A DNA stretch of 64,000 bases from Streptomyces sp. NBC_01255 (GTDB taxonomy: Bacteria > Actinomycetota > Actinomycetes > Streptomycetales > Streptomycetaceae), in NCBI RefSeq assembly GCF_036226445.1, contig NZ_CP108474.1, positions 744,001 to 808,000 of the forward strand, given 5' to 3'. How positions within the stretch are numbered: position 1 is the first letter of the stretch; every line of letters starts with the position of its first letter. A program made the translations under genes and the position numbers. Shown here one piece after another: positions 15,538 through 36,881 of this stretch. The notes under the pieces are model-generated. The model did no database searches. It saw nothing but the letters and a program-made list of their open reading frames with translations, and was not told where the DNA came from.

Positions 15538-15589
15538 TCGCTCCATCCCCCCAGCGCCCGTCACTACACCCGTAAAGGGGTGGGTCTGC

Positions 15590-20889: not shown

Positions 20890-22419
20890 TCAGTCCCGCA
20901 GTCGCCGGAGGACGGACCGCATCGCCCGTTCCACGGCAGCGCGGGAGGCGTCGGTCGGGTCGACCAGTTCGAAGCTGTGGTGGCCCAGCGGTACGTCGAC
21001 GAGGTCGACCTCCACCCCGTTCTTCGCGGCGGCGTCCAGGAAGTCCTGGACCGTCGCCGCGAAGGCGGGGTGTTCGCGTCCGGCCCGGGTGAGGACGACC
21101 GGCGGCCCGCCCGGCTCGGTACCGACAGCGTCGACCGGCCGGAAACGGGACTCGACCGCGCCCCAGCCGGGCAGCGGCGCGAGGGCGGGGTAGCTCGCCG
21201 CGACGCATCGCAGCCACGGCGGGGGCGCGGCGAGCCAGTCCGCCGCGAGGAGCCCGCCGGTGGAGAAGAACCAGAGGGCGACGCGGTCCCCGTCGACGCG
21301 CGGGTCTGCGCGGACGAGTGCGACGGCCTCGACGAGGTCCTCGGCGGCCCGCGGATAGTCGGCGAGGCCGTGCAGCCGGTGGTCCAGGGTCACACCGACG
21401 ACGCCGAGGCTCGCCGCGTAGCGGCCGTATCCGAGGAGGAACGGCGTGTCGCGCGGGGTGGGGTGCTGGTCGGGGGCGATCGGTCCGCCGTGGACGAAGA
21501 CCACGGCCGGCTGAGGACGGTCTCCGTCCTCGCCGGCTGTCGGCAGGTGGAGGTCGATCCGTCCCCGCCGTTCGCGCGGCGCCTCGGGCACGTCCAGGAG
21601 GAACGGCAGGAGGTGCGTGGGCTGTTCGGGTACGCGGGCGCGCTCGGGGGCGCTCACCTGGTGGCCCTCTCCGGCCGCCGCGCGGAGGAGCGTCTCCGCG
21701 AGCTCCCCGGGGACGGAGAGCATCGGCCAGTGCCCGGTGGCCAGTTCGAGGAAGCGGATCCCGGCGTCGGCGAGCGCCCGGAACTGCGGCGGGCCCGATT
21801 CCACCAGCATCTCGACGAGGTCGATGCTCGATCCGTTGGCGGTGCACAGGACGCCCGTGACCGGCAGGGCGGAGGCCGCACCGGTCAGGCGCAGCGGCTG
21901 TGTGAGCGTGCCCGGCGGCTGCGGGGCGGCGAGCCGCGCCAGGCGGTCCAGCGCTTCGGCGGGGACGCCCTCGGTGCTGCCCCAGCGCGGCCAGGTGTCG
22001 CGCGTCGGCGGCGGTACGGGCCCGCTCTCCCCGGTCGGGTCATCCGCCGGCCGGGCCCGGACCTCGGGGTCGGGCACGGAGCGCACGGCAGCCTCCCAGT
22101 TCTGCGGGAGCGGTGTGTCGAGGGCGACGATCCGGGCGACGCGCTCCGGACGCCGGTCGGCTGCGCCGAGGACGGGATGGAGACCGTAGCCGTGCCCCAC
22201 GAGGACGACGTCGGTGTCGGCGATCCCGTCGACCAGCCGCACCAGGTCATCGACGTGCGTCTCCAGATCGGTGCCGGGCCCGGACTCGGCGCGCCGCTCC
22301 CCCATGCCGGTGAGCGTCACCGGGTACGCCTCCGCGCCCGCCTCCCGCAACCGTACGGCTGTCGCCTCCCATACCCAGCCTCCGGTGAAGGGGCCCGGCA
22401 CCAGCACGAACGCGGTCAT
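20890..22419 (-). CDS. Tandem alpha/beta-hydrolase fusion with an altered first nucleophile elbow
   Basis: The 509-residue protein contains two alpha/beta-hydrolase folds. Domain 1 (about 1-240) resembles EstC/MEKHLA-type esterases (FVLVPGPFTGGWVWE), but its nucleophile elbow reads GHGYG, so the usual Ser is Gly. Domain 2 (about 270-509) has the oxyanion HGG motif (VVFVHGGP), a Ser in FFSTGGLLAAD and a late His in LGHHSFELVD, so it looks catalytically competent. Domain 1 may therefore be regulatory or dead. GGAGA precedes the ATG. The promoter is of MerR type and is shared with the divergent MerR gene, which probably activates this gene. The substrate is unknown. Confidence 0.72.
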   Translation of the reverse strand: MTAFVLVPGPFTGGWVWEATAVRLREAGAEAYPVTLTGMGERRAESGPGTDLETHVDDLVRLVDGIADTDVVLVGHGYGLHPVLGAADRRPERVARIVALDTPLPQNWEAAVRSVPDPEVRARPADDPTGESGPVPPPTRDTWPRWGSTEGVPAEALDRLARLAAPQPPGTLTQPLRLTGAASALPVTGVLCTANGSSIDLVEMLVESGPPQFRALADAGIRFLELATGHWPMLSVPGELAETLLRAAAGEGHQVSAPERARVPEQPTHLLPFLLDVPEAPRERRGRIDLHLPTAGEDGDRPQPAVVFVHGGPIAPDQHPTPRDTPFLLGYGRYAASLGVVGVTLDHRLHGLADYPRAAEDLVEAVALVRADPRVDGDRVALWFFSTGGLLAADWLAAPPPWLRCVAASYPALAPLPGWGAVESRFRPVDAVGTEPGGPPVVLTRAGREHPAFAATVQDFLDAAAKNGVEVDLVDVPLGHHSFELVDPTDASRAAVERAMRSVLRRLRD

Positions 22420-22527: not shown

Positions 22528-23439
22528 GTGTTGTCGTCCGACGGGCTGTGGAGCATCGGGGAACTCGCCGAGCGGGCGGGGGTCACCGTGAAGACCGTGC
22601 GCTTCTACTCCGACCGGGGTCTGCTCCCCGAGGCGGGGCGCAGCTCCGGCGGGCATCGGCGGTACGGGCCCGAGGCGTTGGACCGGCTGCGGCTCATCCG
22701 TTCGCTGCGCGCCCTCGACCTGCCGGTGCCGGAGGTGGAGCGGGTTCTCGAACGGGACGAGGCCCTGGAGGAGGTCGTCTCGGGGCAGTTGCGCGAGGTG
22801 AGCTCCCAACTGGCCGCGCTGCGCTGGCGCGAGGCGTCCTTGCGGCTGGTCCAGGACTGCGCGGCCGGGGAACGCGCCGAGCGGCTGCGGCTGGTCGGGG
22901 CCGTGGCCATGCCGCCCGACACGGCTGCCCTGGCCCGGTTCTGGCGGCGGACGCTGCCGGTGCGGCTGCCGGCCCGGACCGTGTCGGCGGTCCTCGATTC
23001 CGTGGTACCGCGGCCGCCGCGGGAGCCGAGCCCCGCGCAGGTGCTGGCCTTCGCCAGGCTGCACGAGCTGGTCACGGATCCGCGCCTCGACCGGCCGGAG
23101 TTCCGGCCGGCACCACCGCTGCCGGACGGGGAGTACCGGCCGACGGTGCTGTACGAGGGCCTTGCCGAGGCGTACGCGCTGGCCGCGTCCTCGACGGCCG
23201 TATCCGCCGAAGCCCTCGACTGCTTCGCCGCCGCCTACGCGAAGGCGCTCGGCAGCCGCGACACTCCCGCCTTCCGGCGCCGTCTCCTCGGTCTGCTCGC
23301 CCGGAACGACGGTCCCGTGATCCGCCGCTACTGGAAGCTCGCCACCGGCCTCTTCGCGCCCGACGAGCCGGTCCTCGGCGCCCTCCACCATCACCTCTCC
23401 GTCGCCCTGTACGCCCAGGTCGAGGCCCGGGCCGTCTGA
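22528..23439 (+). CDS. MerR-family regulator with large C-terminal sensing domain
   Basis: The protein has 303 residues. The MerR winged helix (about 6-75; LWSIGELAERAGVTVKTVRFYSDRGLL, then SGGHRRYGPEAL) is followed by a dimerisation helix and a C-terminal region of about 190 residues with no cysteine metal-site motif, so an organic ligand is more likely. The start is GTG with GTAGGG about 8 nt upstream. It is divergent from the tandem hydrolase, whose promoter carries its likely binding site. Confidence 0.83.
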   Translation: MLSSDGLWSIGELAERAGVTVKTVRFYSDRGLLPEAGRSSGGHRRYGPEALDRLRLIRSLRALDLPVPEVERVLERDEALEEVVSGQLREVSSQLAALRWREASLRLVQDCAAGERAERLRLVGAVAMPPDTAALARFWRRTLPVRLPARTVSAVLDSVVPRPPREPSPAQVLAFARLHELVTDPRLDRPEFRPAPPLPDGEYRPTVLYEGLAEAYALAASSTAVSAEALDCFAAAYAKALGSRDTPAFRRRLLGLLARNDGPVIRRYWKLATGLFAPDEPVLGALHHHLSVALYAQVEARAV

Positions 23440-23554
23440 CAGGCCCCATCCGCATCGTGGGCACCCGGCGTCCACAAACTGGGCGGCCAGGTGGCGGATC
23501 TCGCCGCTCCCCCAACGTCACCGCAGGTCAGAGGCGTACGGAGGGAACGTCAGG

Positions 23555-23572
23555 TGGCGCAATACTGCGGCA
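23555..23572 (+). promoter_or_regulatory. Candidate operator before the GntR gene
   Basis: TGGCGCA-N4-TGCGGCA is an imperfect dyad (6 of 7 positions match) about 38 bp before the GntR start. It could be a self-regulatory GntR site also affecting the ferredoxin operon. No clean -35/-10 pair was identified. Confidence 0.35.
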
Positions 23573-23609
23573 ACACCACCCGGGCCCGTCCGCCGCTACG
23601 TTCCGTTGC

Positions 23610-24377
23610 ATGCCAGCCGAACCCGCCTCCGCCGCCCTCCCGCTCGCCGCCGCCCGCCGCCGGCGCCTGCGGGCGGACCGGGCGCGGCAGCTCGCCGACC
23701 TGCTGCGCCACCAGATCCTTGCGGGTGGCTTCCCCGACGGGATCCTCCCGCTGGAGGACACGCTCGCCGCCGACTTCCGGGCCAGCCGGAACACCGTGCG
23801 GCAGGCCCTGGACCTGTTGCGGGGCGAGCAGATCGTGGCCCGGCAGCCGGGGGTCGGCACCGTGGTCGTCTGCGAGAAGTTCCCGCACGGCCTGGAGCGG
23901 CTCCAGGGACTGGCCGAGACCCTGCACGAACACGGGAGGGTCACCAACGAGGTCCGCACCATGGGGCCGGTCGGCGCGCCGGGTCCCGTGGCCCACCGGC
24001 TCGGCCTGCCCGAGCACGCGGACGTGCTCTGCGTCGAGCGGCTGCGCCGCCTGAACGGGCTGCCGCTCTCCCTCGACCTGTCGTATCTGCCGATGGACAT
24101 CGGCGGTGAACTGCTGGGCTGCGACCTGGAGAACACGGATGTGTTCCGGCTCCTGGAGCAGCTGACGGGCGGCCCGTTGGGGCACGCCGAGATCACCCTT
24201 GAGGCCGTGAACGCCGACGCCCATTCGGCGGCGGTGCTCCAGGCCCCGCGTGGGGCGGCCGTCCTGATGCTGGAACGGCTCACCCATCTGCCGGACGGAC
24301 GGCCGGTGGACCTGGAGTTCATCCGGTTCCGCGGCGACCGCATCACCATGAGCGGCGTCCTCCGCCGCTCTCTCTGA
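23610..24377 (+). CDS. GntR/HutC-family regulator of the ferredoxin-flavoprotein operon
   Basis: The 255-residue protein has a winged-helix GntR domain (about 22-90; RQLADLLRHQILAGGFPDGI, SRNTVRQALDLLRGEQIVARQPGVGT) and a UTRA effector domain (about 100-250; VLCVERLRRLNGLPLSLDLSYLP). HutC-type regulators bind small metabolites. The ferredoxin gene starts 41 bp downstream on the same strand, so this is either the first gene of that operon or its dedicated regulator. Confidence 0.85.
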   Translation: MPAEPASAALPLAAARRRRLRADRARQLADLLRHQILAGGFPDGILPLEDTLAADFRASRNTVRQALDLLRGEQIVARQPGVGTVVVCEKFPHGLERLQGLAETLHEHGRVTNEVRTMGPVGAPGPVAHRLGLPEHADVLCVERLRRLNGLPLSLDLSYLPMDIGGELLGCDLENTDVFRLLEQLTGGPLGHAEITLEAVNADAHSAAVLQAPRGAAVLMLERLTHLPDGRPVDLEFIRFRGDRITMSGVLRRSL

Positions 24378-24418
24378 CCCCCACTCGTTCCCGTACACGA
24401 CCTTTCCTGGAGACAGCC

Positions 24419-24646
24419 GTGCCTCTCGTCCCCCAGCGCGCCGACGTGCCCGTGACCATCGACGAGTCGAAGTGCATCGACGGCTGCACGCTCTGCGTCG
24501 ACATGTGTCCCCTCGACTCGCTCGCGATCCGCGAGGACAACGGCAAGGCGTACATGCACGTGGACGAGTGCTGGTACTGCGGCCCGTGCGCCGCCCGCTG
24601 CCCCACCGGCGCGGTGACCGTCAACATGCCCTACCTGCTCCGGTGA
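24419..24646 (+). CDS. 2x[4Fe-4S] ferredoxin, AprB-like
   Basis: The 75-residue protein has two cysteine clusters: Cys19, Cys23, Cys26, Cys30 (CX3CX2CX3CP) and Cys51, Cys54, Cys57, Cys61 (CX2CX2CX3CP). This implies two [4Fe-4S] centres. Size and spacing resemble bacterial ferredoxins and the core of AprB. It is likely the electron partner of the AprA-like flavoprotein encoded four genes later. The start is GTG with GGAG 6 nt upstream. The next gene follows after 14 bp. Confidence 0.85.
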   Translation: MPLVPQRADVPVTIDESKCIDGCTLCVDMCPLDSLAIREDNGKAYMHVDECWYCGPCAARCPTGAVTVNMPYLLR

Positions 24647-24660
24647 AAGGCCGAACCCCC

Positions 24661-26016
24661 ATGAACGTCACGAGACTCCGTCCCTTGATCCCCCTGGTCC
24701 TGCTGCTGCCGCTGGCCACCGCCTGCGGCAGCTCCGCCGGCGCGGACGGCGGGGGCGACGCGAAGACGGTCACGGTGACCGTCGGGTACCAGTCGAAGAC
24801 CATCAACACCGTCACCGCCGGCACGCTGCTGCGCTCCCTCGGCTACTTCGAGGAGGAGCTCACGGCCCGCGGGAAGCGGGACGGTGTCACCTACCGGGTG
24901 GTGTGGCAGGACTACGCGACCGGGGCGCCGATCACCGCGCAGATGACCGCCGGGAAGATCGACATCGGCTCGATGGGAGACTTCCCGCTGCTGATCAACG
25001 CGGCGCGCGGCGTCCAGCTCAAGGAGCGGACCCGGCTGGTCTCGGTGACCGGCTACAACCCGCGCGGTGGGCTCAACACCGTGGTGACGGCGCCGGGTTC
25101 GCCGCTCCGCTCCCTCGCCGACCTGCGCGGGAAGAAGGTGTCCACCAGCGTCGGTTCGGCGGCCGACGGCACGCTCGTCCGCGCGCTCCAACGGGCGGGG
25201 ATCGACCCGGACAAGGGCGTGGAGAAACTCAACCAGCAGCCCAGCGTGGGTGCTTCGGCCCTGACGTCGGGCAATGTCGACGCGCTGTCGCAGTTCGTCG
25301 CCTGGCCGGGTCTCCTGGCCTTCCAGGGCAAGGCCACGGCCCTGTACGACGGGGCCGAACTGAACCTGCCGACCTTCCACGGCGTGACCGTCCGGGAGGG
25401 GTTCGCGACCCGGCGGCCCGGGGTCCTCGACGACTTCCTGCGGGCCCAGCGGCGGGCGACGGACGAGCTGCGGTCGCGGCCCGTCGCCGCCGCCGAGTCG
25501 GTGGCGAAGGAGACCGGCCTCCCCGCCGAGGTGGTCTACCTCTACAACGGCTCCCAGGGCATCGCGACGTTCGACCCGGCCCTCCGCCCGGAGCTGATCG
25601 CCGCGCTGAAGAACGACGTGTCGGTGCTGAAGGCCGCCGGTCTGGTGGAGGACGTCGATGTCGACGCCTTCGTCGACGCGGCGCCGCTGCGCCGGGCGGT
25701 CCGGGACCCCGCGTACCCGAAGGCGGGCCCGGCCAGGTCCGAGCTGTGGCTGAAGGGGCAGGGCACGACCCGGACGTTCGCGACTCCCGGGGAGCTCCTG
25801 AAGGCCGTCGGAGAGGCGGGCCCGGACAAGGTGCGGGCCGCGTACGTGCCGGACGCGGTGACCGGGACGCTCTGGTTCGCCGACCGGGCGGTGTGGGTCA
25901 CGGACGGTTCCGGACCGCGGGCGTTCGTCACCCGGTCGGGGGCCGAGCGGTACGTCTCCGCTCACGCGGGGGCCCGGATCGTCGGCTACGCGGACGCCCT
26001 GCGGGCGGCGTCGTGA
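24661..26016 (+). CDS. SsuA/TauA-type substrate-binding lipoprotein with NosL-like C-terminal domain
   Basis: The 451-residue lipoprotein has lipobox LATAC (Cys22). The NMT1/SsuA-like binding fold spans about 35-330, with DFPLLINAARG, LADLRGKKVSTSVGSAADG and GVTVREGFATRRPGVLDDFL. Residues about 365-447 form an added domain (RAAYVPDAVTGTLWFADRA, AFVTRSGAERYVSAHAGARI) that resembles NosL, a copper-binding accessory protein of nitrous-oxide reductase. That fusion is unusual for an ABC binding protein. The typical NosL Met/Cys ligands are not evident. Ligand prediction (sulfonate, taurine or similar) comes only from the family. Confidence 0.75.
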   Translation: MNVTRLRPLIPLVLLLPLATACGSSAGADGGGDAKTVTVTVGYQSKTINTVTAGTLLRSLGYFEEELTARGKRDGVTYRVVWQDYATGAPITAQMTAGKIDIGSMGDFPLLINAARGVQLKERTRLVSVTGYNPRGGLNTVVTAPGSPLRSLADLRGKKVSTSVGSAADGTLVRALQRAGIDPDKGVEKLNQQPSVGASALTSGNVDALSQFVAWPGLLAFQGKATALYDGAELNLPTFHGVTVREGFATRRPGVLDDFLRAQRRATDELRSRPVAAAESVAKETGLPAEVVYLYNGSQGIATFDPALRPELIAALKNDVSVLKAAGLVEDVDVDAFVDAAPLRRAVRDPAYPKAGPARSELWLKGQGTTRTFATPGELLKAVGEAGPDKVRAAYVPDAVTGTLWFADRAVWVTDGSGPRAFVTRSGAERYVSAHAGARIVGYADALRAAS

Positions 26017-26885
26017 GCGGGGGCCGCAGACTCCTTCGGGTCGCCTCGCTCGGCGCCGCCCTCGGGCTGTGGCAGGTGCTGACCGCCCTGGACGTCACGC
26101 TGTGGCTGCGGTTCGAGCAGTTCCCCACGGTCGGGGAGGTGGCCTCGGCCCTCGCCGACCGGCTCGGCACCGACACGTACTGGCAGGATCTCGGGCACAG
26201 CCTGCGCCGGATCGTCGTGGGCTTCCTCCTCGCCGCGGTGCTCGGCGTGGCGGCCGGGACGGCCGTCGCCCGGTCCCGGTGGGCCGCCGACCTGCTCGGC
26301 CCGCTGGTGGAGGTGGTGCGGCCGGTGCCGGCCATCGCCCTGGTGCCGGTGGCGATCCTGCTGCTGCCCACCACCGAGCAGGGCATCGTCTTCATCACCT
26401 TCACCGCGGCCTTCTTCCCCGTCCTCGTGTCGACCCGGCACGCGGTGGCCGCGCTCGGCCCGGTCTGGGAGGAGGCCGTGCTCACCATGGGCGGCGGCCG
26501 GCTCCGGGTGCTGTTCTCCGTGGTGCTGCCGGGCTCCCTGCCGGGGATCTTCGGCGGCCTCTCGGTCGGCATCGGCGTCTCGTGGATCTGTGTGATCTCG
26601 GCGGAGATGATCTCCGGCGAGTACGGGGTGGGCTACCGCACCTGGCAGGACTACACGGTCGTCGACTATCCGGGGGTGTTCGTCGGCATGGCCACCATCG
26701 GCGTCCTCGGCTGGCTCACCTCCACCGCGGTCGAGGTGCTCGGCCGCCGTGTCACCGCCTGGCTCCCGCGCCCGGCCGCACGCGGGGCGGCCGGTCCCGT
26801 CCGCGCGCCGGGCGGCGCCGCTTCCGCGGCCTTCCGACGTACCCCCGCCGCCGTCCCCCTGGCGGAGAAGGAGCCGGTGTCATGA
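26013..26885 (+). CDS. SsuC/TauC-type ABC permease
   Basis: This is a 290-residue membrane protein of the nitrate/sulfonate/taurine permease class. It shows the family segments EVVRPVPAIALVPVAILLLP and the coupling loop WEEAVLTMGGGRLRVLFSVV (EAA-like), followed by GISWICVISAEM-type helices and GYRTWQDYTVVDYPGVFVGM. An Ala/Arg/Pro-rich cytoplasmic tail of about 45 residues is extra. The GTG start overlaps the previous stop (GTGA). Confidence 0.87.
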   Translation: MSGGRRLLRVASLGAALGLWQVLTALDVTLWLRFEQFPTVGEVASALADRLGTDTYWQDLGHSLRRIVVGFLLAAVLGVAAGTAVARSRWAADLLGPLVEVVRPVPAIALVPVAILLLPTTEQGIVFITFTAAFFPVLVSTRHAVAALGPVWEEAVLTMGGGRLRVLFSVVLPGSLPGIFGGLSVGIGVSWICVISAEMISGEYGVGYRTWQDYTVVDYPGVFVGMATIGVLGWLTSTAVEVLGRRVTAWLPRPAARGAAGPVRAPGGAASAAFRRTPAAVPLAEKEPVS

Positions 26886-27694
26886 GTGTCGTGCGTGCCG
26901 TGAGTGATGTCAGTGGCGCGAGTACCGTGAGCCCGTCCACCGGTGCGAACCCGCGCCCCGACGCGAGCCCCCGCCCCGGCGCGGAGCTCGCCCTGCACGG
27001 CGTACGGCTCGGCCACCCGGGCGGCGTGGCCGTGCCCGCCCCCGCCGGACTGCGGATCCCGCCCGGCGAACTGCTCACCGTGGTCGGTCCCTCCGGCTGC
27101 GGGAAGACGACGCTGCTGCGCACCCTCGCCGGGCTGCTGCCGCCGCTCGCCGGGCAGGTCACCCAGGACGGGGAGCCGATCGTCCGGCCGGGCGCCGACC
27201 GGGCGCTGGTCTTCCAGCACGACGCCCTGCTGCCCTGGCGTTCCGTCCGCGCCAACGTGGAGCTGCCGCTGGCGATCCGCAGGGTCCCCCGGGCCGAGCG
27301 GCGGCGCGCGGCGGAGGAGTGGCTGGAGCGGATCGGACTCGCCGGGCACGCGCACAAGCTGCCGCACCAGCTGTCCGGCGGGCAGCGGCAGCGCGTACAG
27401 CTGGCCCGGGCCCTGGCCGGCCGGCCCCGCGCGGTCCTGATGGACGAGCCGTTCGGCGCGCTCGACGCGCACACGCGCGCCGGGATGCAGGACCTGCTCG
27501 TGGAGATCCTGCGCGGCACGGGCGCGACCGTCGTCTTCGTCACGCACGACGTCGACGAGGCGCTCCATCTGGGCGACCGGGTCGTCCTGTTCGCGTCCGG
27601 GGAGGTCCTGGACGTGCCGCACCCGCGGTCGCGGGACGCCCGCCACGCTCCGGCCACGGCCGCGCTGCGCCGCCGCGTCCTCGACTCCCTCTGA
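26882..27694 (+). CDS. SsuB/TauB-type ABC ATPase
   Basis: The 270-residue ATPase has Walker A GPSGCGKT, Q-loop VFQHDALLPWRS (typical of nitrate/sulfonate/taurine ATPases), signature LSGGQRQRV, Walker B VLMDEPFGALD and H-loop FVTHDVDEA. A low-complexity N-terminal tail of about 35 residues precedes the fold, so the true start might be later. The ATG overlaps the permease stop (ATGA). It energises the permease for the NosL-tailed binding protein. Confidence 0.87.
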   Translation: MSVVRAVSDVSGASTVSPSTGANPRPDASPRPGAELALHGVRLGHPGGVAVPAPAGLRIPPGELLTVVGPSGCGKTTLLRTLAGLLPPLAGQVTQDGEPIVRPGADRALVFQHDALLPWRSVRANVELPLAIRRVPRAERRRAAEEWLERIGLAGHAHKLPHQLSGGQRQRVQLARALAGRPRAVLMDEPFGALDAHTRAGMQDLLVEILRGTGATVVFVTHDVDEALHLGDRVVLFASGEVLDVPHPRSRDARHAPATAALRRRVLDSL

Positions 27695-27720
27695 CTGAAA
27701 GTCCCTGCGAAAGGCATCCC

Positions 27721-30525
27721 GTGAGCACTCCCCTCGCCGACCACGGCCCCGCCCTCGGCGGCCCCGCCCTCTCCATCCCGGCCCTCGCCGACGCGACCGA
27801 GCTCACCTGTGACGTGCTCGTCGTCGGCGGCGGTACGGCCGGCACCATGGCCGCGCTGACCGCGGCCGAGCGCGGTGCGAACGTGCTGCTCCTGGAGAAG
27901 GCGCACGTGAGGCATTCGGGGGCCCTGGCCATGGGCATGGACGGGGTGAACAACGCGGTCGTCCCGGGCCGGGCCGAACCCGACGACTACGTCGCCGAGA
28001 TCACCCGCGCCAACGACGGTCTCGTCGACCAGTCCACCGTCCGGCAGACGGCGACCCGCGGCTTCGCGATGGTCCAGCGGCTCGAGTCGTACGGGGTGAA
28101 GTTCGAGAAGGACGAGCACGGCGAGTACGCGGTCCGCCAGGTGCACCGGTCCGGCTCGTACGTGCTGCCGATGCCGGAGGGCAAGGACGTCAAGAAGGTC
28201 CTCTACCGGCAGCTGCGGCGGCGGGAGATGCGGGAGCGGATCCGGATCGAGAACCGGGTGATGCCGGTGCGGGTGCTCACCCACCCGGACGACGGCCGGG
28301 CCGTCGGAGTCGCCGGATTCCACACCCGTACAGGGGAATTCGTCACGGTCCGGGCGGGTGCGGTGATCCTCGCCACCGGGCCCTGCGGTCGGCTCGGCCT
28401 GCCGGCCTCCGGGTATCTGTACGGGACGTACGAGAACCCGACGAACGCGGGTGACGGCTACGCGATGGCGTACCACGCGGGAGCCGCGCTCACCGGGATC
28501 GAGTGCTTCCAGATCAACCCGCTGATCAAGGACTACAACGGTCCCGCCTGCGCCTACGTCGCCAACCCCTTCGGCGGGTACCAGGTGAACCGGCACGGCG
28601 AGCGGTTCGTGGAGTCGGACTACTGGTCGGGGCAGATGATGGCCGAGTTCGCGACCGAACTCGCCTCCGACCGGGGCCCGGTGTACTTGAAACTGAGCCA
28701 TCTGCCGGAGGAGACCATCGGCGCCGTCGAGTCGATCCTCCACACCACGGAGCGGCCGACCCGGGGCACCTTCCACGAGGGGCGCGGACACGACTACCGG
28801 ACCCACGACATCGAGATGCACATCTCGGAGATCGGTCTGTGCGGCGGCCATTCGGCCTCCGGGGTACGGGTGGACGCCCATGCCCGCACGACCGTGCCCC
28901 GGCTGTACGCGGCCGGCGACCTGGCCTCCGTACCCCACAACTACATGATCGGCGCGTTCGTCTTCGGCGACCTGGCGGGCGAGGACGCGGCACGGTACCG
29001 GACGTACGAAGGGGAGCTTCCGGCGGACCAGTTGGCCGCCGCGCACGAGCTCGTCTACCGGCCGCTACGGAACCCCGAGGGCCCGCCGCAGCCCCAAGTC
29101 GAGTACAAGCTGCGGAGGTTCGTGAACGACTACGTGGCGCCGCCGAAGACCGGGGCGAAACTCTCCCTGGCGGTGGAGGCGTTCACCCGGATGTCGGAGG
29201 AGATCGCCGGCATGGGGGCACGCACGGCTCACGAGCTGATGCGGTGCGCGGAGGTGAGCTTCATCCGGGACTGCGCCGAGATGGCGGCGCGGGCGTCGCT
29301 GGCGAGGACCGAGTCGCGGTGGGGGCTCTACCACGAGCGTCTCGACCATCCGGAGCGGGACGACCAGGACTGGCTGCACCACCTCGATCTGCGCAAGTCC
29401 CCTTCCGGGACGATGGAGTTCACGGCGCGGCCGGTCGAGCCGTACGTGGTGCCGGTGCCGGAGTTCGCACCGCCGGCGGGTCCCGAGCGGCCGCTCGGGG
29501 AGGTCGCGCTCGTACCGGTGGCGACGGCCGGGCCGCGGGACGGGGCGCCGACGGCCCGCAAGGCCACGACGGCGACCGCAACCACGACCACGCCCGCGTC
29601 GCCGGACCCGGCAGGGCATGCCGGTGCCCCGGACCCCCATCTCCCCCTGCTTCGCCTCCTCGCGCTCGTCGAGGAGTCCCCCGACCTGGCGGCGCTGCGG
29701 CCCTACCTCGACGACGCCGACCCGGCGGTCCGGGCCGCCGCCGTCACCGCGCTCGGGGAGACCGCTCCGGCCGGGGCGGGGCCGGCGCTCGCGGCGCATC
29801 TGGCGGACGCGGCGCCGCGGGTACGGGCGGCCGCCGCGGCCGCGCTGCGCGAGCTGGTCGAGGTCCTGCCGGCCGATCCGCCGCTCGCGGCGGGTCTGCG
29901 GGAGGCGCTCGGCGTGCCCGACCCGGCGGTGCGCACAGCGGCGCTGGACGTCCTGCGGGCCCTGCGGCTCGGTGACCCCGCGCTGTACGCGGCCTCGCTC
30001 GCCGACGCCGACGTCGAGGTCCGTATCCAGGCCGTCCGGGCGCTGGTCTCGGTGGACGCGGTCGAGGAGCTCGCGGGGGCGGCCGCCGATCCGGCCCGCG
30101 AGGTGCGGGTCGCGGTGGCCCGTGGTCTCGCCGCCGTGCGCGCCCCCGCCCCGAAGCCGCTCGACCCGCTGCTCGACGACCCCGACCCTCTGGTCAGGGG
30201 GGCCGCGCTGGCCGCGCTGGCGGGTACGGGCTGCCCGCCGGAGTACGCGGCGGCCGCGGTGGCGGCACTCGCCGATGCCGCCTGGCAGGTCCGGGCCGGC
30301 GCGGCGACCGCGCTGCGGGCCGCACCGCCCGAGCCGGCGGTTCCCGCGCTCGCCGGGGCCCTTCGCAGCGACGCGAACGCGGACGTCCGCAAGGCGGCCG
30401 TCCTCTCCCTGCTCGCGCACGGCGCCGAGCCGGCGGCCCGCGCGGCCCTCGCCGGGGCGGCCGACGACCCCGACGCCGACGTCCGCGCCTACGCCTCGCG
30501 CGTGCCGGTGAGCGGGAAGCCGTAG
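27721..30525 (+). CDS. AprA/fumarate-reductase-like flavoprotein with C-terminal HEAT repeats
   Basis: The protein has 934 residues. An N-terminal FAD-binding_2 domain carries the dinucleotide motif GGGTAG (36-41). The mid-region GYLYGTYENPTNAGDGYAM and the return strand PRLYAAGDLASVPHNYMIG follow. The helical C-domain ends in SRWGLYHERLDHPERDDQDW, as in SdhA/FrdA/AprA (about 430-570). A Thr/Ala/Pro linker leads to about 290 residues of HEAT/PBS-lyase-like repeats (from about 645; DPAVRAAAVTALGE, DVEVRIQAVRALVS). HEAT repeats are not part of AprA or SdhA and suggest a docking scaffold. With the 8Fe ferredoxin it resembles an AprAB-like redox pair; the substrate is unknown. The start is GTG with GAAAGG upstream. 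Confidence 0.8.
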   Translation: MSTPLADHGPALGGPALSIPALADATELTCDVLVVGGGTAGTMAALTAAERGANVLLLEKAHVRHSGALAMGMDGVNNAVVPGRAEPDDYVAEITRANDGLVDQSTVRQTATRGFAMVQRLESYGVKFEKDEHGEYAVRQVHRSGSYVLPMPEGKDVKKVLYRQLRRREMRERIRIENRVMPVRVLTHPDDGRAVGVAGFHTRTGEFVTVRAGAVILATGPCGRLGLPASGYLYGTYENPTNAGDGYAMAYHAGAALTGIECFQINPLIKDYNGPACAYVANPFGGYQVNRHGERFVESDYWSGQMMAEFATELASDRGPVYLKLSHLPEETIGAVESILHTTERPTRGTFHEGRGHDYRTHDIEMHISEIGLCGGHSASGVRVDAHARTTVPRLYAAGDLASVPHNYMIGAFVFGDLAGEDAARYRTYEGELPADQLAAAHELVYRPLRNPEGPPQPQVEYKLRRFVNDYVAPPKTGAKLSLAVEAFTRMSEEIAGMGARTAHELMRCAEVSFIRDCAEMAARASLARTESRWGLYHERLDHPERDDQDWLHHLDLRKSPSGTMEFTARPVEPYVVPVPEFAPPAGPERPLGEVALVPVATAGPRDGAPTARKATTATATTTTPASPDPAGHAGAPDPHLPLLRLLALVEESPDLAALRPYLDDADPAVRAAAVTALGETAPAGAGPALAAHLADAAPRVRAAAAAALRELVEVLPADPPLAAGLREALGVPDPAVRTAALDVLRALRLGDPALYAASLADADVEVRIQAVRALVSVDAVEELAGAAADPAREVRVAVARGLAAVRAPAPKPLDPLLDDPDPLVRGAALAALAGTGCPPEYAAAAVAALADAAWQVRAGAATALRAAPPEPAVPALAGALRSDANADVRKAAVLSLLAHGAEPAARAALAGAADDPDADVRAYASRVPVSGKP

Positions 30526-30658
30526 CCGAGGGCCGTGCGCGCACCCGCGTGTGTGGTGATCGGCGGCACATGGGTGAACGCGCGCATGCGGGGCCGCCAG
30601 GCGGGGAAGGGGCGCGGGGCGGTGTCGGGAGACCCGCTGTGGACGGTGGACCGAGGAG

Positions 30659-31471
30659 ATGGTGGGAGTGACGGTGAGCGCGGAGGCAGTGGGCGCGCCG
30701 TGCTGGCTGAATCTGGCCGCGCGCGATCTCGACGCGGCGGAGCGGTTCTACGGGGCCGTGCTCGGCTGGACGTTCCGCCGGGGCGCTCTCGGCGACGAGT
30801 ACGCGGTGGGCGAGCGGGACGGGGTGCCGGTGGCCGGGATCGCGGCGGTGGCCGCCGAGATGGCGGTGCCGGTGGCCTGGACGGCGTTCTTCGCGGTGGA
30901 CGACGCCGACGCGGCGGTGGCGCGGATCCGGGAGCGCGGGGGCACGGTCGGCGTGGGGCCGGTCGCCTTCCCACCCCGGGGGCGCGCGGCGCTCGCCACG
31001 GACCAGGAGGGCGCCCAGTTCGCGGTGTGGGAGGGGCGGCTGATCTCGCGGTGGCGCGTGGACGAGCAGACGGCACCGGCCTGGCTCGAACTGCACACGC
31101 GGGACGCGTTCGACGCCGCCGTGTTCTACGGCGGGGTGCTCGGCTGGGCGGACGGGAGCCCGTCCGGCGTCGAGGTCTCGTACGAGGAGGACCAGGTGGT
31201 GCTGCGGTGGCACGGCGAGGCCGTCGCCCGCCTGAACAGCGGCCCGGTCGAGTCCGCCTCGCCCCGGCCGCAGCTGCGTCCCCGCTGGCTCGTACGGTTC
31301 CGGGTGCCGGATCTGGAGACCGCGACGGCCGCGGTCGTGAAGCACGGCGGTTCGGTGGTGCCGGGCGGCGAGTGGGGCGGGGTGCGCGCCCCGGACGGCG
31401 CCGACCGGCATCGTACGGTCGTACGAGACCCGGACGGCGCGCTGTTCACGCTGGACACCGGGGCGAACTGA
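30659..31471 (+). CDS. Two-domain VOC (glyoxalase-fold) protein
   Basis: The protein of about 270 residues has two vicinal-oxygen-chelate modules (about 12-125 and 138-268). Each has the beta-alpha-beta start (WLNLAARDLDAAERFYGAVLGW; WLELHTRDAFDAAVFYGGVLGW). Such tandem VOC proteins are abundant in Streptomyces and mostly uncharacterised; metal ligands cannot be assigned with confidence. GAGGAG touches the ATG at 30659, so the GTG at 30668 (spacing 9) may be the real start. It is one of three similar proteins in this window. Confidence 0.78.
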   Translation: MVGVTVSAEAVGAPCWLNLAARDLDAAERFYGAVLGWTFRRGALGDEYAVGERDGVPVAGIAAVAAEMAVPVAWTAFFAVDDADAAVARIRERGGTVGVGPVAFPPRGRAALATDQEGAQFAVWEGRLISRWRVDEQTAPAWLELHTRDAFDAAVFYGGVLGWADGSPSGVEVSYEEDQVVLRWHGEAVARLNSGPVESASPRPQLRPRWLVRFRVPDLETATAAVVKHGGSVVPGGEWGGVRAPDGADRHRTVVRDPDGALFTLDTGAN

Positions 31472-31583: not shown

Positions 31584-33071
31584 CTACCGCAGGGCGGCGC
31601 GCGGAGCGCCCTCGGATCCGGCGTCGGTCCCGGATCCGGCGTCGGTCCCGGTACCGGACGGGCCGTCCGCGCCCGTCGCCGGGGCCTTCGCCGGGATCAG
31701 CGCGGCGACGACCGCGGCGACCAGGCCGACCCCGGCACCGATCATCATGGCGGCGCGGAAGCCGCCCTCGGAGGGCAGGACGTGGCCGCCGAGCGTGGTG
31801 GTCATCTGGGCGAGGACGACGCCGATGACGGCCGCCGACACGGAGGTGCCGATGGACCGCATCAGGGTGTTGAAGCTGTTGGCCGACGCCGTCTCCTCCT
31901 GCGGCACCGCGCCCATGATGAGCGCCGGCATCGCCCCGTAGGCGAGCCCCACTCCCGTGTTGCAGATGAGCGTCACGACGAGCAGGCCCCAGGTGGAGCC
32001 CATCAGCGCGAGGGAGGAGGCGTATCCGGCGGAGATGACCAGGGCGCCGAGGGAGAGGGTGACCTTGGGGCCGCGGGCGGCCGACAGCTTGGCGCCGAGC
32101 GGGGCCAGGGCCATCATCATCAGTCCCGCCGGGGCCATCCAGAGGCCCATCGCCATCATCGACTGGCCGAGGCCGTAGCCGGTGGCCTCGGGCAGCTGGA
32201 GCAGCTGCGGGACGACCAGCGACTGCGCGTACATGGCGAAGCCGACGAGCACTGAGGCCGCGTTGGTCAGGAGGACGACGGGGCGGGCGGTGACGCGCAG
32301 GTCGACCAGCGGGTCACGGGTCCGCAGCTCCCACGCGCCCCAGGCGAGCAGGACGACGGCCGAGCCGCCGAAGAGGCCGAGGGTGGTGCCGCTGCCCCAG
32401 CCCCAGGTCGCGCCCTTGGAGACGGCGAGCAGCAGGGCGACGAGTCCGACGCCGAGGCCGAGGGCGCCGGGCACGTCGAAGCGCCCGGGGGCGGGGTTGC
32501 GGGGGCCCGCGGGCACGACGCGCCAGATCAGGAGGCCGACGAGCAAGCTGAAGGCGGCGGCGACCCAGAAGAGGACGCGCCAGCTGGCGTTCTCGGCGAC
32601 GGCGGCCGAGAAGGGCAGGCCGAGGGCGCCGCCGACGCCCATGGAGGCGCTCATCAGGGCGATGGAGCCGCCGAGCTTCTCGGGCGGCAGGACGTCCCGG
32701 AGGAGGCTGATGCCGACGGGCACGACGCCCATGCCGAGGCCCTGGAGGCCGCGTCCGACGATCATCGGGACGACGGAGGAGGCGAGCGCGCAGACGACGG
32801 ATCCGGCGATCAGCGGAACGACCGAGGCGAGCAGGACGCGGCGCTTGCCCAGGGTGTCGCCGAGGCGTCCGGCGACGGGGGTGGCGACGGCCGCGGCGAG
32901 CAGGGTGGCGGTGATCACCCAGGAGGCGTTGGACGGGGCGGTGTCGAGAAGTTTCGGCAGGTCGCCGATGAGCGGCACCACCAGGGTCTGCATGAGTGCG
33001 GCCACGATGCCCGCAAGGGCGAGGACGCCGACGACGCCTCCGGTGCGGGCTTCGGGCTTGGAGCCGTCCAC
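31584..33071 (-). CDS. MFS drug exporter, DHA2/EmrB type
   Basis: The protein of about 495 residues has about 14 predicted transmembrane helices. The loop 2-3 motif is RLGDTLGKRRVLL (motif A), the helix-4 region is GRGLQGLGMGVVPVGISLLRD (motif B region) and the helix-5 region is GVGGALGLPFSAAVAE (antiporter motif C). These identify a proton-coupled exporter. The GTG at 33071 with GAGGGAG upstream is preferred; the longer frame runs across the operators. It is divergent from a MarR gene, which probably represses it until a toxic ligand appears. The tail is Gly/Thr/Ser-rich. Confidence 0.87.
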   Translation of the reverse strand: MDGSKPEARTGGVVGVLALAGIVAALMQTLVVPLIGDLPKLLDTAPSNASWVITATLLAAAVATPVAGRLGDTLGKRRVLLASVVPLIAGSVVCALASSVVPMIVGRGLQGLGMGVVPVGISLLRDVLPPEKLGGSIALMSASMGVGGALGLPFSAAVAENASWRVLFWVAAAFSLLVGLLIWRVVPAGPRNPAPGRFDVPGALGLGVGLVALLLAVSKGATWGWGSGTTLGLFGGSAVVLLAWGAWELRTRDPLVDLRVTARPVVLLTNAASVLVGFAMYAQSLVVPQLLQLPEATGYGLGQSMMAMGLWMAPAGLMMMALAPLGAKLSAARGPKVTLSLGALVISAGYASSLALMGSTWGLLVVTLICNTGVGLAYGAMPALIMGAVPQEETASANSFNTLMRSIGTSVSAAVIGVVLAQMTTTLGGHVLPSEGGFRAAMMIGAGVGLVAAVVAALIPAKAPATGADGPSGTGTDAGSGTDAGSEGAPRAALR

Positions 33072-33100
33072 GGGTTCTCCCTCGGTTTTCCACAGTGAAT

Positions 33101-33155
33101 GATGTGCATCATGCACAGCTCTTGCGTTATACACAAGTCGTGCACGATGCACATC
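33101..33155. promoter_or_regulatory. Twin MarR operators in mirror orientation
   Basis: GATGTGCATCATGCAC (33101-33116) and GTGCACGATGCACATC (33140-33155) are inverted copies of each other at 15 of 16 positions, separated by 23 bp. Each is itself a partial dyad (ATGATG-TG-CATCAT; GTGCA-CGA-TGCAC). They bracket the intergenic region of the exporter and MarR genes, so one regulator can control both promoters. Confidence 0.75.
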
Positions 33156-33181
33156 ACGTCGCCACGAGAGAGAATGCCCCC

Positions 33182-33649
33182 ATGGACAAGCCCGTGGACA
33201 AGCCCACTCACCTGGTCGAGTTCGAGACCATGCTGCTCGGCCGGCACGCCCACCTGTACGCGCCCCGCTCCCGCGCCGCCGGCGGTCACCTCGACCGCAG
33301 CGCGTACGTCCTGCTGAGCCGCATCCGCATGCACGGGCCGATGTCCATCGGACAGCTCACCGACGCCTTCGGCCTCGACGCCTCCACCCTCAACCGGCAG
33401 ACCGCCGCCATGCTCCGCGCCGGGGTCGTCGAGCGCATCCCCGACCCCGACGGCGGCATCGCCCGCAAGTTCCGCATCACGGAGGAGGGCGAGCACCGGC
33501 TCGACGCCGACCGGGCGTCGAACATCGAGGGCCTGGAGCGGGTCATGGAGCACTGGTCGCCGGAGGACGTGGCCCGTTTCGCCGGCTTCCTCGAACGCTT
33601 CAACCGGGACATCGAGCGCCTGGAGGGCCGCCCCTGGCCCCGCCCCTGA
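33182..33649 (+). CDS. MarR-family regulator
   Basis: The 155-residue protein has a single winged helix with flanking dimerisation helices: SAYVLLSRIRMHGPMSIGQLTDAFGLDASTLNRQTAAML (recognition helix), then the wing RIPDPDGGIARKFRITEEGE. It is divergent from the MFS exporter, the usual MarR arrangement, with twin operators between them. The ATG at 33182 has a weak ribosome site. A strong terminator follows. Confidence 0.88.
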   Translation: MDKPVDKPTHLVEFETMLLGRHAHLYAPRSRAAGGHLDRSAYVLLSRIRMHGPMSIGQLTDAFGLDASTLNRQTAAMLRAGVVERIPDPDGGIARKFRITEEGEHRLDADRASNIEGLERVMEHWSPEDVARFAGFLERFNRDIERLEGRPWPRP

Positions 33650-33726: not shown

Positions 33727-33790
33727 TTCCGTCGGATCCCTTTACGGGCGGGCCGCACAGCGGTAACTTCCGGCCACGCAAGATGTTTCT

Positions 33791-33799
33791 GAAAGTTTC
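33791..33799 (+). promoter_or_regulatory. GAAAGTTTC dyad upstream of the alpha-amylase gene
   Basis: GAAA-G-TTTC lies 82 bp before the ATG, preceded by an overlapping TTTC half-site. Similar GAAA-N-TTTC boxes occur before actinomycete polysaccharide-hydrolase genes, where they act in substrate control. The nearby promoter hexamers are not clear. Confidence 0.35.
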
Positions 33800-33881
33800 C
33801 GACTGCGTTTCCAAAGGACCTCACAGCCCGTCAGGGGGCGAGCTCCGACCGGTGACGCGGCGGCCCTGCCTGGAGATTCAG

Positions 33882-36881
33882 ATGACACGCACCCGCAGAC
33901 GGCTGCCGGCCCGCCCGGTCGCCGCACTGGCGGCCGCCGCCGGCGTTCTCGGCCTGGTGGTCGCCTCGCCCCCCGGCGGGACCTCCCCCCGCACCGCACC
34001 GGTCGCGGCCGCCGCCGACAACACGGCCACGGTCTTCTACTGGACGAAGACGAAGAACTGGGCCCTCCACAACCTCCATTACGCGCCCGACGGCGGGTCC
34101 TGGACCACGGTCCCCGGCGTCGCCATGGAGGCCGCCTGTACGGACTGGGTGAAGAAGACCGTGACCCTCGGCACGGCCGCGGGCCTCCAGGCCACGTTCA
34201 ACAACGGCAGCGGCACCTGGGACAACAACGGCGGCAGGAACTACGCCCTCGGCACCGGCGCCATCACCGTCAAGGACGGGGTCGTCGCGCACTCCGACCC
34301 CTGCGCCGGAACCGAGCCGACCCCGACGCCCACTCCGTCAGCATCTGCCAAGGCCACGGTCTACTACTCGACCGAGGCGCTCGGCTGGTCCACCGTCAAC
34401 GTCCACTACCAGCCCGCGGGCGGCGCCTGGACGACCGCCCCCGGCGTCGGCATGCAGGCGGCGTGCGCCGGGTGGTGGAAGCGGGAGGTCGACCTCGGGA
34501 CAGCCGCCTCCCTCAAGGCCGCCTTCAACAACGGCAACGGCACCTGGGACAACAACCGCGGCTCGGACTACACGATCGGTACGGGCGTCAGCACCGTACG
34601 GAACAACGTGGTGACGGCGAACGCGTCCGACCCGTGCGCCGCCGCCGTGCCCGACACCCAGGCCCCGACGGCGCCCACCCGGGTCACCGCCGCCGCCGAC
34701 GGCGTCTCCGTCCTGCTCACCTGGGATCCCGCCATGGACGACCGCGGGGTGACGAGGTACCAGGTGACCCGGTCCGGCGGCAGTGGCGGCACGGTGGTGA
34801 CCGACGTCGGCTCCACCGTCTTCTCCGACACCGGACTCGCCGAACGGACCACGTACAGCTACACGGTGAAGGCCGTGGACGCCGCGGGGAACGTCTCCGC
34901 GGCCTCGGCCGCCGCGACCGCGACCACGGGCGACAAGCCGCAGACCCCCGCCGCCGGGAAGCCGCTCGGCACCGATCCGCGCAAGGACCCGATCTACTTC
35001 GTCCTCACCGCCCGCTTCAACGACGGCGACCCGTCGAACAACCGCGGCGGGAGCCAGCACACCAAGTCCGGCAACGCGGCCAACGACGACCCCATGTTCC
35101 GGGGCGACTTCAAGGGCCTCGTCCAGAAGCTGGACTACGTCAAGGGCCTCGGCTTCTCGGCGATATGGGTCACCCCGGTGGTCCTCAACCGCTCGGACTA
35201 CGGCTACCACGGCTACCACGGCTACGACTTCTACAAGGTCGACCCGCGCCTGGAGTCCGCCGGAGCCTCCTACCAGGACCTGATCGACGCCGCCCACGCC
35301 AAGGGCATGAAGATCTACCAGGACGTCGTCTACAACCACTCGTCCCGCTGGGGCGCCAAGGGCCTGTTCGTACCCACCGTGTACGGCGTCCGGGACAGCC
35401 AGTGGAGCTGGTACTACGACGAGAAGCAGCCCGGCTTCGAGTACGACGGCCTGACGGTCGACGCCAAGTCCGGTAAGTCATACTACAACGGCGACCTGTG
35501 GTCGACGGCCGAGCCGACCGGCAACACCTGCGTCAACTGGGGCAAACTGACCGGCGGGAAGAGCGCGGAGGGCTACATCGTCTACAACTGCCAGTGGCCG
35601 AGCCCCACGTCCGGCATGTTCCCGAAGAACCTCTTCCACCAGTGCTGGATCGGCAACTGGGAGGGTGAGGACTCGCGTTCCTGCTGGCTGCACGAGGACC
35701 TCGCCGACTTCAACAGCGAATCCCCCGCCGTGCAGAACTACTTGATCGGCGCCTACAACAAGTACATCGACATGGGCGTCGACGGATTCCGCGTCGACAC
35801 CGCCGTGCACATCCCCCGCACCACCTGGAACCGCCGCTTCCTGCCCGCGATCCAGGAGCGGGTGACGCAGCGTCACGGAGCGGAGGCCGCACGGAACTTC
35901 TTCGTCTTCGGCGAGGTCGCCGCCTTCGTCAACGACAAGTGGAACCGCGGCTCGGTGAACCACTCGGCGCAGTTCTTCACCTGGAAGGAGCGCAAGGAGT
36001 ACGACGCCGACGACGCCAAGGCCGCCCTGGAGATGTACGACTACGAGCAGCAGCAGGGCACGGGAAGCCAGCCCACCTCCACCAACGCCTTCCTCGACGG
36101 GAACACCTACCACGCCCCCGACCACAGCCGCTTCTCCGGCATGAACGTCATCGACATGCGCATGCACATGAACTTCGGTGACGCGTACAACGCCTTCTCC
36201 AACGGCAAGGACTCGGACGACAGCTACAACGACGCCACCTACAACGTCGTCTACGTCGACAGCCACGACTACGGCCCCAACAAGTCCAGCGAGCGGTACA
36301 CGGGCGGCACCGACGCCTGGGCCGAGAACATGTCGCTGATGTGGACCTTCCGCGGCATCCCGACGCTGTACTACGGCTCGGAGATCGAGTTCCAGAAGGG
36401 GAAGAAGATCGACTGCGGGCCGTCCTGCCCGCTCGCCACCACCGGCCGCGCGTACTTCGGCGACCACGTCGCCGGCTCCGTCACGGCCTCCGACTTCTCC
36501 CAGGTCTCGTCGGCCTCCGGGGCCGTGGCCACCACGCTCCAGCAGCCCCTGGCGCGGCACGTGCAGCGGCTCAACCAGATCCGCCGGGCGATCCCGGCCC
36601 TCCAGATGGGCCAGTACTCCACCGAGGGCATCCAGGGCGGCATGGCGTTCAAGCGCCGCTACACCAGCGGCACGACGGACAGCTTCGCCCTCGTCACGAT
36701 CTCGGGCGGCGCCACCTACACGGGCATCCCGAACGGCACGTACACCGACGCCGTCACGGGCGACGTGAAGACCGTCACCAACGGAACGCTCTCGGTCGGC
36801 GCGCCCGGCAAGGGCAATCTCCGGGTGTACGTCCTGAACGGCCCCGGCAGGATCGGAGCCGCGGGCCCGTACCTGAAGTAG
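33882..36881 (+). CDS. Secreted GH13 alpha-amylase with two CBM25 and one FnIII domain
   Basis: The protein has 999 residues. The signal peptide ends near AAAAD (about 44). Two CBM25 starch-binding modules follow (about 46-142 and 156-251; both have FNNG.GTWDNN), then a fibronectin-III domain (about 260-350) and a GH13 barrel from about 368. Catalytic residues are Asp639 (GFRVDTAVH), Glu678 (FGEVAAF) and Asp796 (VDSHDYG). The order CBM25-CBM25-FnIII-GH13 suits digestion of raw starch granules outside the cell. GGAG lies 6 nt before the chosen ATG. Terminators flank the gene on both sides, so it is monocistronic. Confidence 0.9.
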   Translation: MTRTRRRLPARPVAALAAAAGVLGLVVASPPGGTSPRTAPVAAAADNTATVFYWTKTKNWALHNLHYAPDGGSWTTVPGVAMEAACTDWVKKTVTLGTAAGLQATFNNGSGTWDNNGGRNYALGTGAITVKDGVVAHSDPCAGTEPTPTPTPSASAKATVYYSTEALGWSTVNVHYQPAGGAWTTAPGVGMQAACAGWWKREVDLGTAASLKAAFNNGNGTWDNNRGSDYTIGTGVSTVRNNVVTANASDPCAAAVPDTQAPTAPTRVTAAADGVSVLLTWDPAMDDRGVTRYQVTRSGGSGGTVVTDVGSTVFSDTGLAERTTYSYTVKAVDAAGNVSAASAAATATTGDKPQTPAAGKPLGTDPRKDPIYFVLTARFNDGDPSNNRGGSQHTKSGNAANDDPMFRGDFKGLVQKLDYVKGLGFSAIWVTPVVLNRSDYGYHGYHGYDFYKVDPRLESAGASYQDLIDAAHAKGMKIYQDVVYNHSSRWGAKGLFVPTVYGVRDSQWSWYYDEKQPGFEYDGLTVDAKSGKSYYNGDLWSTAEPTGNTCVNWGKLTGGKSAEGYIVYNCQWPSPTSGMFPKNLFHQCWIGNWEGEDSRSCWLHEDLADFNSESPAVQNYLIGAYNKYIDMGVDGFRVDTAVHIPRTTWNRRFLPAIQERVTQRHGAEAARNFFVFGEVAAFVNDKWNRGSVNHSAQFFTWKERKEYDADDAKAALEMYDYEQQQGTGSQPTSTNAFLDGNTYHAPDHSRFSGMNVIDMRMHMNFGDAYNAFSNGKDSDDSYNDATYNVVYVDSHDYGPNKSSERYTGGTDAWAENMSLMWTFRGIPTLYYGSEIEFQKGKKIDCGPSCPLATTGRAYFGDHVAGSVTASDFSQVSSASGAVATTLQQPLARHVQRLNQIRRAIPALQMGQYSTEGIQGGMAFKRRYTSGTTDSFALVTISGGATYTGIPNGTYTDAVTGDVKTVTNGTLSVGAPGKGNLRVYVLNGPGRIGAAGPYLK

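Follow-up and report, generated by a model that had tools for sequence, protein, structure and literature searches.

A conserved Streptomyces gene set joining an AprA-like flavoprotein and a ferredoxin to a taurine/sulfonate-related importer: a candidate organosulfur-assimilation operon

Which small molecule is handled by an operon that combines an ATP-binding cassette (ABC) importer with a soluble flavin/iron-sulfur pair? The question is raised by positions 23610 to 30525 of a 64,000-nucleotide stretch of the Streptomyces sp. NBC_01255 genome (assembly GCF_036226445.1, contig NZ_CP108474.1, positions 744,001 to 808,000), the whole of which is referred to below as the window. A first-pass annotation had described six consecutive genes on one strand, those of the importer overlapping, which join a sulfonate/taurine-class importer to a ferredoxin and an AprA/FrdA-like flavoprotein, and had suggested that an imported compound, possibly an organosulfur one, is processed by the pair. 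We find a conserved core that consists of the flavoprotein, the ferredoxin and a HEAT-repeat part, often together with a DUF971 protein. We tentatively propose from sequence comparisons that the operon encodes an organosulfur-assimilation system, an assignment that may well prove wrong. The genes, domains and residues concerned are the following.

23610..24377, + strand: GntR-family regulator with UTRA ligand domain, HutC type (Pfam UTRA 1.6e-32, GntR 5.4e-13)
24419..24646, + strand: 75-residue 8Fe ferredoxin, GTG start, similar to AprB and to the beta subunit of 3'-phosphoadenosine 5'-phosphosulfate (PAPS) reductase (Fer4_7 4.9e-11)
24661..26016, + strand: lipoprotein substrate-binding protein with SsuA/TauA fold and an extra C-terminal domain (NMT1 8.6e-14)
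25738..26013, + strand: NosL-like C-terminal domain of the binding protein, about residues 360-451
26013..26885, + strand: ABC permease, GTG start, TauC/SsuC/NtrB class (BPD_transp_1 1.9e-18)
26882..27694, + strand: ABC ATPase, TauB class (ABC_tran 2.4e-30)
27721..30525, + strand: AprA-like flavoprotein fused to a C-terminal HEAT-repeat domain, GTG start, 934 residues
27811..29451, + strand: flavoprotein core (Pfam FAD_binding_2, residues 31-404, 1.8e-34; Succ_DH_flav_C, residues 463-577, 2.3e-15)
28504..28506, + strand: invariant Cys262, motif ECxQINPLIKDYNGPxC
28549..28551, + strand: invariant Cys277
28840..28842, + strand: invariant Cys374, motif CxGHS, adjoining His377
29272..29274, + strand: invariant Cys518
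29623..30522, + strand: HEAT-repeat domain, about residues 635-934 of the flavoprotein (Pfam HEAT_2 2.3e-26)

The six tightly spaced plus-strand genes were confirmed from the sequence, its translations and domain searches. Their intergenic gaps of 41, 14, -4, -4 and 26 bp suit a single operon and bear out the overlaps within the importer part. Simple frame calling from guanine-cytosine (GC) content erred in part of the region because open frames overlap in this DNA of 74-75% GC, and frames were fixed by profile scores instead; a competing minus-strand frame (23553-24398) is without any Pfam match. A scan of positions 23400-30700 revealed no sigma-70 promoter-like or terminator-like site, which carries little weight in an actinomycete. 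The regulator exceeds no NCBIfam cut-off, the best model being PhnF (90.4 vs 156.8), and the lipobox of the binding protein was identified by eye.

The flavoprotein is a full-length member of NF010374 (PRK13800), with 1588.6 bits against a cut-off of 1196 over residues 18-927 of 934, so that membership includes the HEAT part. Its core also exceeds the cut-off of NF006131 (PRK08275; 862.8 bits, cut-off 587), and only one gene in the genome of the organism (8.57 Mb, two contigs) does so. Both models are named 'fumarate reductase/succinate dehydrogenase flavoprotein subunit' in NCBIfam; for NF010374 this is a name without a described function, and although the label implies succinate/fumarate chemistry, the residues disagree. 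In an alignment with 7d6v, the SdhA residues His (HPTG), Glu and Arg, which we take to be catalytic, are matched by N266, Y279 and N282.

The closest solved relative is a sulfur enzyme, the alpha subunit of PAPS reductase from Methanothermococcus thermolithotrophicus (8a8o_A, E 1.6e-55 to 3.5e-55), followed by AprA of dissimilatory adenosine 5'-phosphosulfate (APS) reductase (2fja/1jnr). The same complex provides the best short Protein Data Bank (PDB) chain for the ferredoxin, its beta subunit (8a8o_C, 6.3e-8), with AprB chains at 3.1e-6 (3gyx_B) and 7.5e-6; long polyferredoxins score better than any short chain. An alignment of ten ferredoxins from three phyla has eight invariant cysteines and a DECW motif. 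These comparisons support the soluble flavin/iron-sulfur pair of the first-pass annotation, in which an AprA-like flavoprotein would cooperate with an AprB-like ferredoxin.

How far the likeness extends into the active site was read from residue conservation in 128 sequences (37 actinobacterial-type, 3 cyanobacterial and 88 proteobacterial, all 127 loci kept). With AprAB the pair shares fold and pairing, the C-terminal helical part matches, and Asn74 is kept. In the HMMER alignment AprA N74, E141, W234 and R265, which together with H398 presumably form the substrate site, correspond to N77, S144, Y237 and L268 of the window protein; H398 falls outside this alignment, and the GGH of PAPS reductase aligns with His377. 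PAPS reductase has Arg at the position of AprA R265, where the window protein has Leu. The residue equivalent to Glu141 is Ser, Val, Met or Leu across the family. Identical in 128 of 128 sequences are L268, Y237, H377, N266, C262, C277, C374 and C518 as well as Y279, while N77 is found in 127 and masked in the remaining one; compared with 8a8o, the family thus has motifs of its own and four invariant cysteines. The window proteins stay far from the curated cut-offs of TIGR02061 and TIGR02060. Also unlike dissimilatory AprAB, the window pair is linked to an importer and occurs in aerobes. The AprAB-type relatives and the replaced site residues together suggest a pair that follows the AprAB plan with an active site of its own. 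An AlphaFold2 (AF2) model of the flavoprotein, built from 23 sequences, has a mean predicted local distance difference test (pLDDT) score of 60.9 and is poor around the active site; it was therefore used for the fold only and not for the pocket.

The importer was described in the first-pass annotation as being of the sulfonate/taurine class, and this holds at the level of relatedness. The binding protein scores 122.8 bits with SsuA_fam, below the cut-off of 163.5, and its AF2 model (mean pLDDT 79.6) is closest in the PDB to TauA (6ssy, 2.5e-18) and SsuA (2x26, 6.9e-18), with DszB, Thi5, NrtA and CmpA further down the list. The permease reaches 111.6 bits with ntrB and 108.1 bits with TauC (cut-off 342), both below the cut-offs, and the ATPase 222.5 bits with the TauB model (cut-off 357). 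All three genes thus appear related to the TauABC/SsuABC class without being members by the curated models. In contrast to TauABC and SsuABC contexts, the operon is without TauD or SsuD, and the binding protein bears an extra C-terminal domain of about 90 residues, which aligned throughout in 21 of 21 binding proteins. When five such pieces were compared with Pfam NosL (PF05573, cut-off 24), two were over the cut-off (28.1 and 25.9) and two under it (18.9 and 19.2), while the window piece gave no Pfam NosL match. NosL binds copper. The window domain has neither Cys nor Met, which makes copper binding in the manner of NosL unlikely.

In proteobacteria and cyanobacteria the counterpart of the HEAT domain at the C-terminus of the flavoprotein has a gene to itself. 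Profiles of 35 of the 37 actinobacterial-type C-termini and of 89 separate proteins match with 99.8% probability in hhalign (E 2.4e-28), the best single separate protein reaching 2.9e-43. Profiles are needed to see the link, since a lone proteobacterial HEAT sequence used as query did not find the window domain at 1e-8, and profile scores are inflated by repeat proteins. The consistent gene context appears to be the stronger argument for equivalence of the gene and the fusion.

The set is well conserved within the genus. Thirty-five of 101 same-genus genomes, that of the window included, carry a flavoprotein gene over the NF010374 cut-off, and 34 loci were fetched, one from each of 34 other genomes. 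All six genes are present in 32 of these, in the order of the window in 31; in locus L120 the order is different, with the GntR gene and the flavoprotein first, the ferredoxin and importer after them and the HEAT part as a separate piece. L119 contains only a short fragment of the ATPase (76 bits), L122 is without the binding protein and the permease, and L123 is interrupted by a contig end. In L122 (G014:C288) the GntR, ferredoxin and flavoprotein genes have only an ATPase remnant between them, which reflects natural importer loss or an assembly fault. In a sample of the phylum, five of 149 genomes exceed the NF006131 cut-off, three from the same genus and two from another family, and the open frames of 967-1302 codons are long enough for the HEAT fusion.

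The enzyme set spans Actinomycetota, Pseudomonadota and Cyanobacteriota, and its local order changes in proteobacteria and cyanobacteria. In a plasmid collection 54 records matched at 1e-30, 49 of them over at least 80% of the flavoprotein core. Thirteen plasmid loci, from five of which the query proteins for these counts were drawn, all have the ferredoxin and the HEAT part, which has a gene of its own in 11 and is fused in L010 and L021; the binding protein, the permease and the ATPase are each found in 12, L011 having no permease or ATPase match. On the cyanobacterial plasmids L015 (5307-7343, - strand) and L019 (5562-7577, - strand), a protein of about 670 residues annotated as LysR substrate-binding domain-containing is encoded between importer and flavoprotein. 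In L014 the set lies on a 44-kb record named as an Acinetobacter baumannii plasmid and adjoins a chromate-efflux gene.

Among proteobacteria, where 14 of 60 Cupriavidus genomes carry the flavoprotein family, a scan with 12 aligned cores gave at least 589 matches, the best 80 of which were taken as loci. Seventy of these are usable, not being near a contig end: ferredoxin and HEAT part are present in 70/70, GntR in 69/70 and DUF971 in 59/70. The whole importer accompanies the set in 48 of the 70 loci, and the other 22 have no importer gene. Ten importer-less genomes were searched for the binding protein anywhere, and nine had none at E 1e-20; the tenth has a copy elsewhere that is 91% identical. 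The importer can thus be missing from the set. The first-pass annotation had regarded importer and pair as parts of a single pathway, a view that would suffer if ferredoxin and flavoprotein genes were widespread without the importer. This is partly the case: they lack it in these 22 loci, but keep it in the other 48, in 12 of the 13 plasmid loci and in 32 of the 34 same-genus loci. A different permease and ATPase of this general kind lie near four of the loci without the importer, and NMT1 matches top the tally of downstream neighbours there (6 of 56; the neighbour tallies cover 56 and 53 proteins, 109 of 165 listed).

Organosulfur assimilation agrees with a number of these results: the conserved set of the genus, an importer fold nearest to TauA and SsuA, a flavoprotein and a ferredoxin that both match PAPS reductase, and retention of N77 (AprA N74) and His377 (GGH). 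Sulfite-exporter-type genes (TauE/SafE, YeiH) adjoin the set in three of the 13 plasmid loci (L015, L019 and L020), and an SrpI-like encapsulin and a class-V aminotransferase, which we read as cysteine-desulfurase-type, each account for three of the 56 downstream neighbours of importer-less loci. In addition, asfABC, one studied system with such parts, serves to obtain sulfur from sulfonates according to the relevant passages of PMC4267179. Other results weigh against this assignment. With Arg265 and Glu141 of AprA both replaced, APS/PAPS chemistry as such is unlikely for the flavoprotein. SsuA-like folds in the list of structural matches also serve thiamin precursors, nitrate and bicarbonate. 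Single-sequence queries for TauE and YeiH at 1e-8 gave no match in the 80 proteobacterial loci, and the encapsulin loci, judged by their coordinates, belong to related Paraburkholderia/Burkholderia and may count only once. The same-genus loci show no consistent sulfur gene among 102 of the 127 neighbouring proteins found; YeiH-type, sulfatase, FGE-sulfatase and luciferase-like proteins occur once each. Amidase, formamidase/acetamidase or ammonium-transporter genes neighbour the set in L011, L017, L020 and L023. To these points the importer-less sets have to be added.

The link to sulfur rests on homology and thin gene context, and the putative substrate and reaction are our best guess. The regulator would release the operon under sulfur limitation or in the presence of the compound, and the importer would take up a small sulfonate-type anion. 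Flavoprotein and ferredoxin may form an AprAB-like heterodimer, in which flavin adenine dinucleotide (FAD) would act on the sulfur group; as in APS reductase, a flavin-sulfite adduct may be involved, the invariant cysteines might assist this chemistry, and the ferredoxin would carry electrons. Sulfite would be freed for assimilation, and the HEAT part may be a scaffold or a partner-docking arm. In importer-less sets the substrate would be taken up by a different transporter or produced inside the cell. Such a role would amount to a route of sulfur nutrition in soil bacteria other than TauD and SsuD.

Going further, the flavoprotein could represent a new class of flavoenzyme with the APS-reductase fold, which breaks the C-S bond (or another bond of sulfur) in an unactivated organosulfur compound with neither an oxygenase nor a radical enzyme, using FAD, the AprB-like ferredoxin, active-site cysteines and the HEAT scaffold. 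We regard this as improbable; if true, sulfur assimilation would have a widespread route that has gone unrecognised, and AsfA might itself desulfonate, beyond carrying electrons.

In principle, the imported substrate could also be free of organic sulfur, with the pair oxidising or reducing a nitrogen- or carbon-bearing small molecule that arrives through an NMT1-type importer. Binding proteins of the NMT1 type have thiamin precursors, nitrate and bicarbonate among their ligands, C-C or C-N bonds are the target of most other complex-II-like flavoproteins, and UTRA regulators frequently respond to catabolic effectors; the four loci with nitrogen-type neighbours fit as well. Nevertheless, the nearest solved enzymes are PAPS/APS reductases, the nearest importer folds are those of TauA and SsuA, and sulfite exporters adjoin three of the 13 plasmid loci, so that we hold this explanation to be somewhat unlikely.

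Alternatively, flavoprotein, ferredoxin, HEAT part and DUF971/Mrp may constitute a general redox or iron-sulfur module that works on an internal substrate and for which the importer is an optional neighbour. The 22 importer-less loci and the nine genomes without a binding protein are what such a module would predict, and so are DUF971 in 59 of the 70 loci and an Mrp/NBP35 gene in cyanobacterial loci. This is doubtful in view of importer retention in 48/70, 12/13 and 32/34 loci, the other permease and ATPase near four of the 22 importer-less sets and the lead of NMT1 in their downstream tally.

The nearest known operon is asfRABC. It is required for obtaining sulfur from aryl-sulfonates in P. 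putida S-313 and consists of a reductase, a ferredoxin, a binding protein, an ABC transporter and a LysR regulator, as given in parts of PMC4267179; Rhodococcus and Williamsia are also reported to carry asfA (passages of PMC4267179 and PMC9694294). Like the window operon it combines a complex-II-like flavoprotein, an adjacent small 8Fe ferredoxin (AsfB), an SsuA-family binding protein and an ABC transporter; AsfB is the same kind of protein as that encoded at 24419-24646, a likeness of kind and not orthology. Identity with asf, in which the pair would supply electrons for the desulfonation of aromatic sulfonates by an oxygenase, was the first lead. For comparison, excerpts of PMC2864759 give AsfA/AsfB of C. 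metallidurans CH34 as Rmet_4334/5 and its NuoF homologue as Rmet_4300. On CHR2 of CH34 at about 928-930 kb, genes for a 541-residue flavoprotein and a 111-residue ferredoxin adjoin those for a binding protein, an ATPase and a permease, and lie about 34 kb past a NuoF-like gene, recognised by eye and taken as Rmet_4300. From the gene-number spacing and the gene pair itself we infer that these are AsfA and AsfB. A tricarballylate-type pair at 0.79 Mb, where linear spacing would put Rmet_4334, was dropped, as the NuoF homologue places Rmet_4334 at about 0.93 Mb.

The inferred CH34 AsfA is only a distant cousin of the window flavoprotein. The two share 26% identity over 540 columns; it matches six family sequences at E 2.9e-17 and reaches 56.2 bits on NF006131, whose cut-off is 587. 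CH34 has no NF006131 gene, its best match being 3.6e-35. The regulator is of LysR type in asf and of GntR/UTRA type here; the window operon has the HEAT part and the NosL-like domain, and asfABC is described without a HEAT part in the pertinent sections of PMC4267179. The like kinds of parts, in the literature and at the CH34 locus, and the actinobacterial asfA reports notwithstanding, identity with asf is very improbable. By this test, made with the inferred CH34 AsfA, the window operon appears asf-like in plan and not a member of asf. A tree agrees in that 13 family rows cluster (99/99) and AsfA branches outside them, but the SdhA_CH34 row has the wrong strand, one row was omitted and long branches meet, so the separation is argued from the profile scores instead. 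An ordinary soluble succinate dehydrogenase or fumarate reductase, suggested by the names of NF010374 and NF006131 and by the Succ_DH_flav_C domain and already considered in the first-pass annotation, can practically be dismissed, because the SdhA residues are replaced by N266, Y279 and N282, the first two invariant in 128 of 128 sequences, and the operon contains no membrane anchor and no 2Fe-2S/3Fe-4S subunit, only the 75-residue 8Fe ferredoxin.

The earlier interpretation thus stands in part: gene set, importer class and soluble pair are borne out, the HEAT part, the NosL-like domain, DUF971 and the resemblance to asfRABC had been missed, and the organosulfur role is retained as a proposal. 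NCBIfam already contains the protein families, so the parts themselves are known; new here are the operon-level set, the equivalence of HEAT gene and fusion, the NosL-like domain, the invariant cysteines and the separation from asf. A search of the open-access literature found no study of this operon, and passages of PMC7661421, PMC8557817 and PMC12581299 name no such genes. At the least, the label 'fumarate reductase/succinate dehydrogenase' deserves correction, and the set offers a testable frame for the role of AsfA-type flavoproteins in aryl-sulfonate use.

Some neighbouring genes may be recorded. At L056, L062 and L067 the encapsulin and aminotransferase genes lie downstream of the set (likely genes, from coordinates only). 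In the window, a peptide-type ABC importer (SBP_bac_5 lipoprotein, permease and oligo_HPY ATPase) is encoded upstream and outside the operon at 15419-20035, followed at 20893-22419 (- strand) by an alpha/beta-hydrolase-type protein (Abhydrolase_6 5.4e-17), whose C-terminal half gives a weak second match to a hydrolase. On the downstream side, a glyoxalase-like protein of two domains (30659-31468) precedes a divergent pair of a major facilitator superfamily (MFS) exporter and a MarR regulator (31587-33152, - strand, and 32996-33646), and positions 33783-36878 encode a large amylase of secreted type that has CBM25 and fn3 domains.

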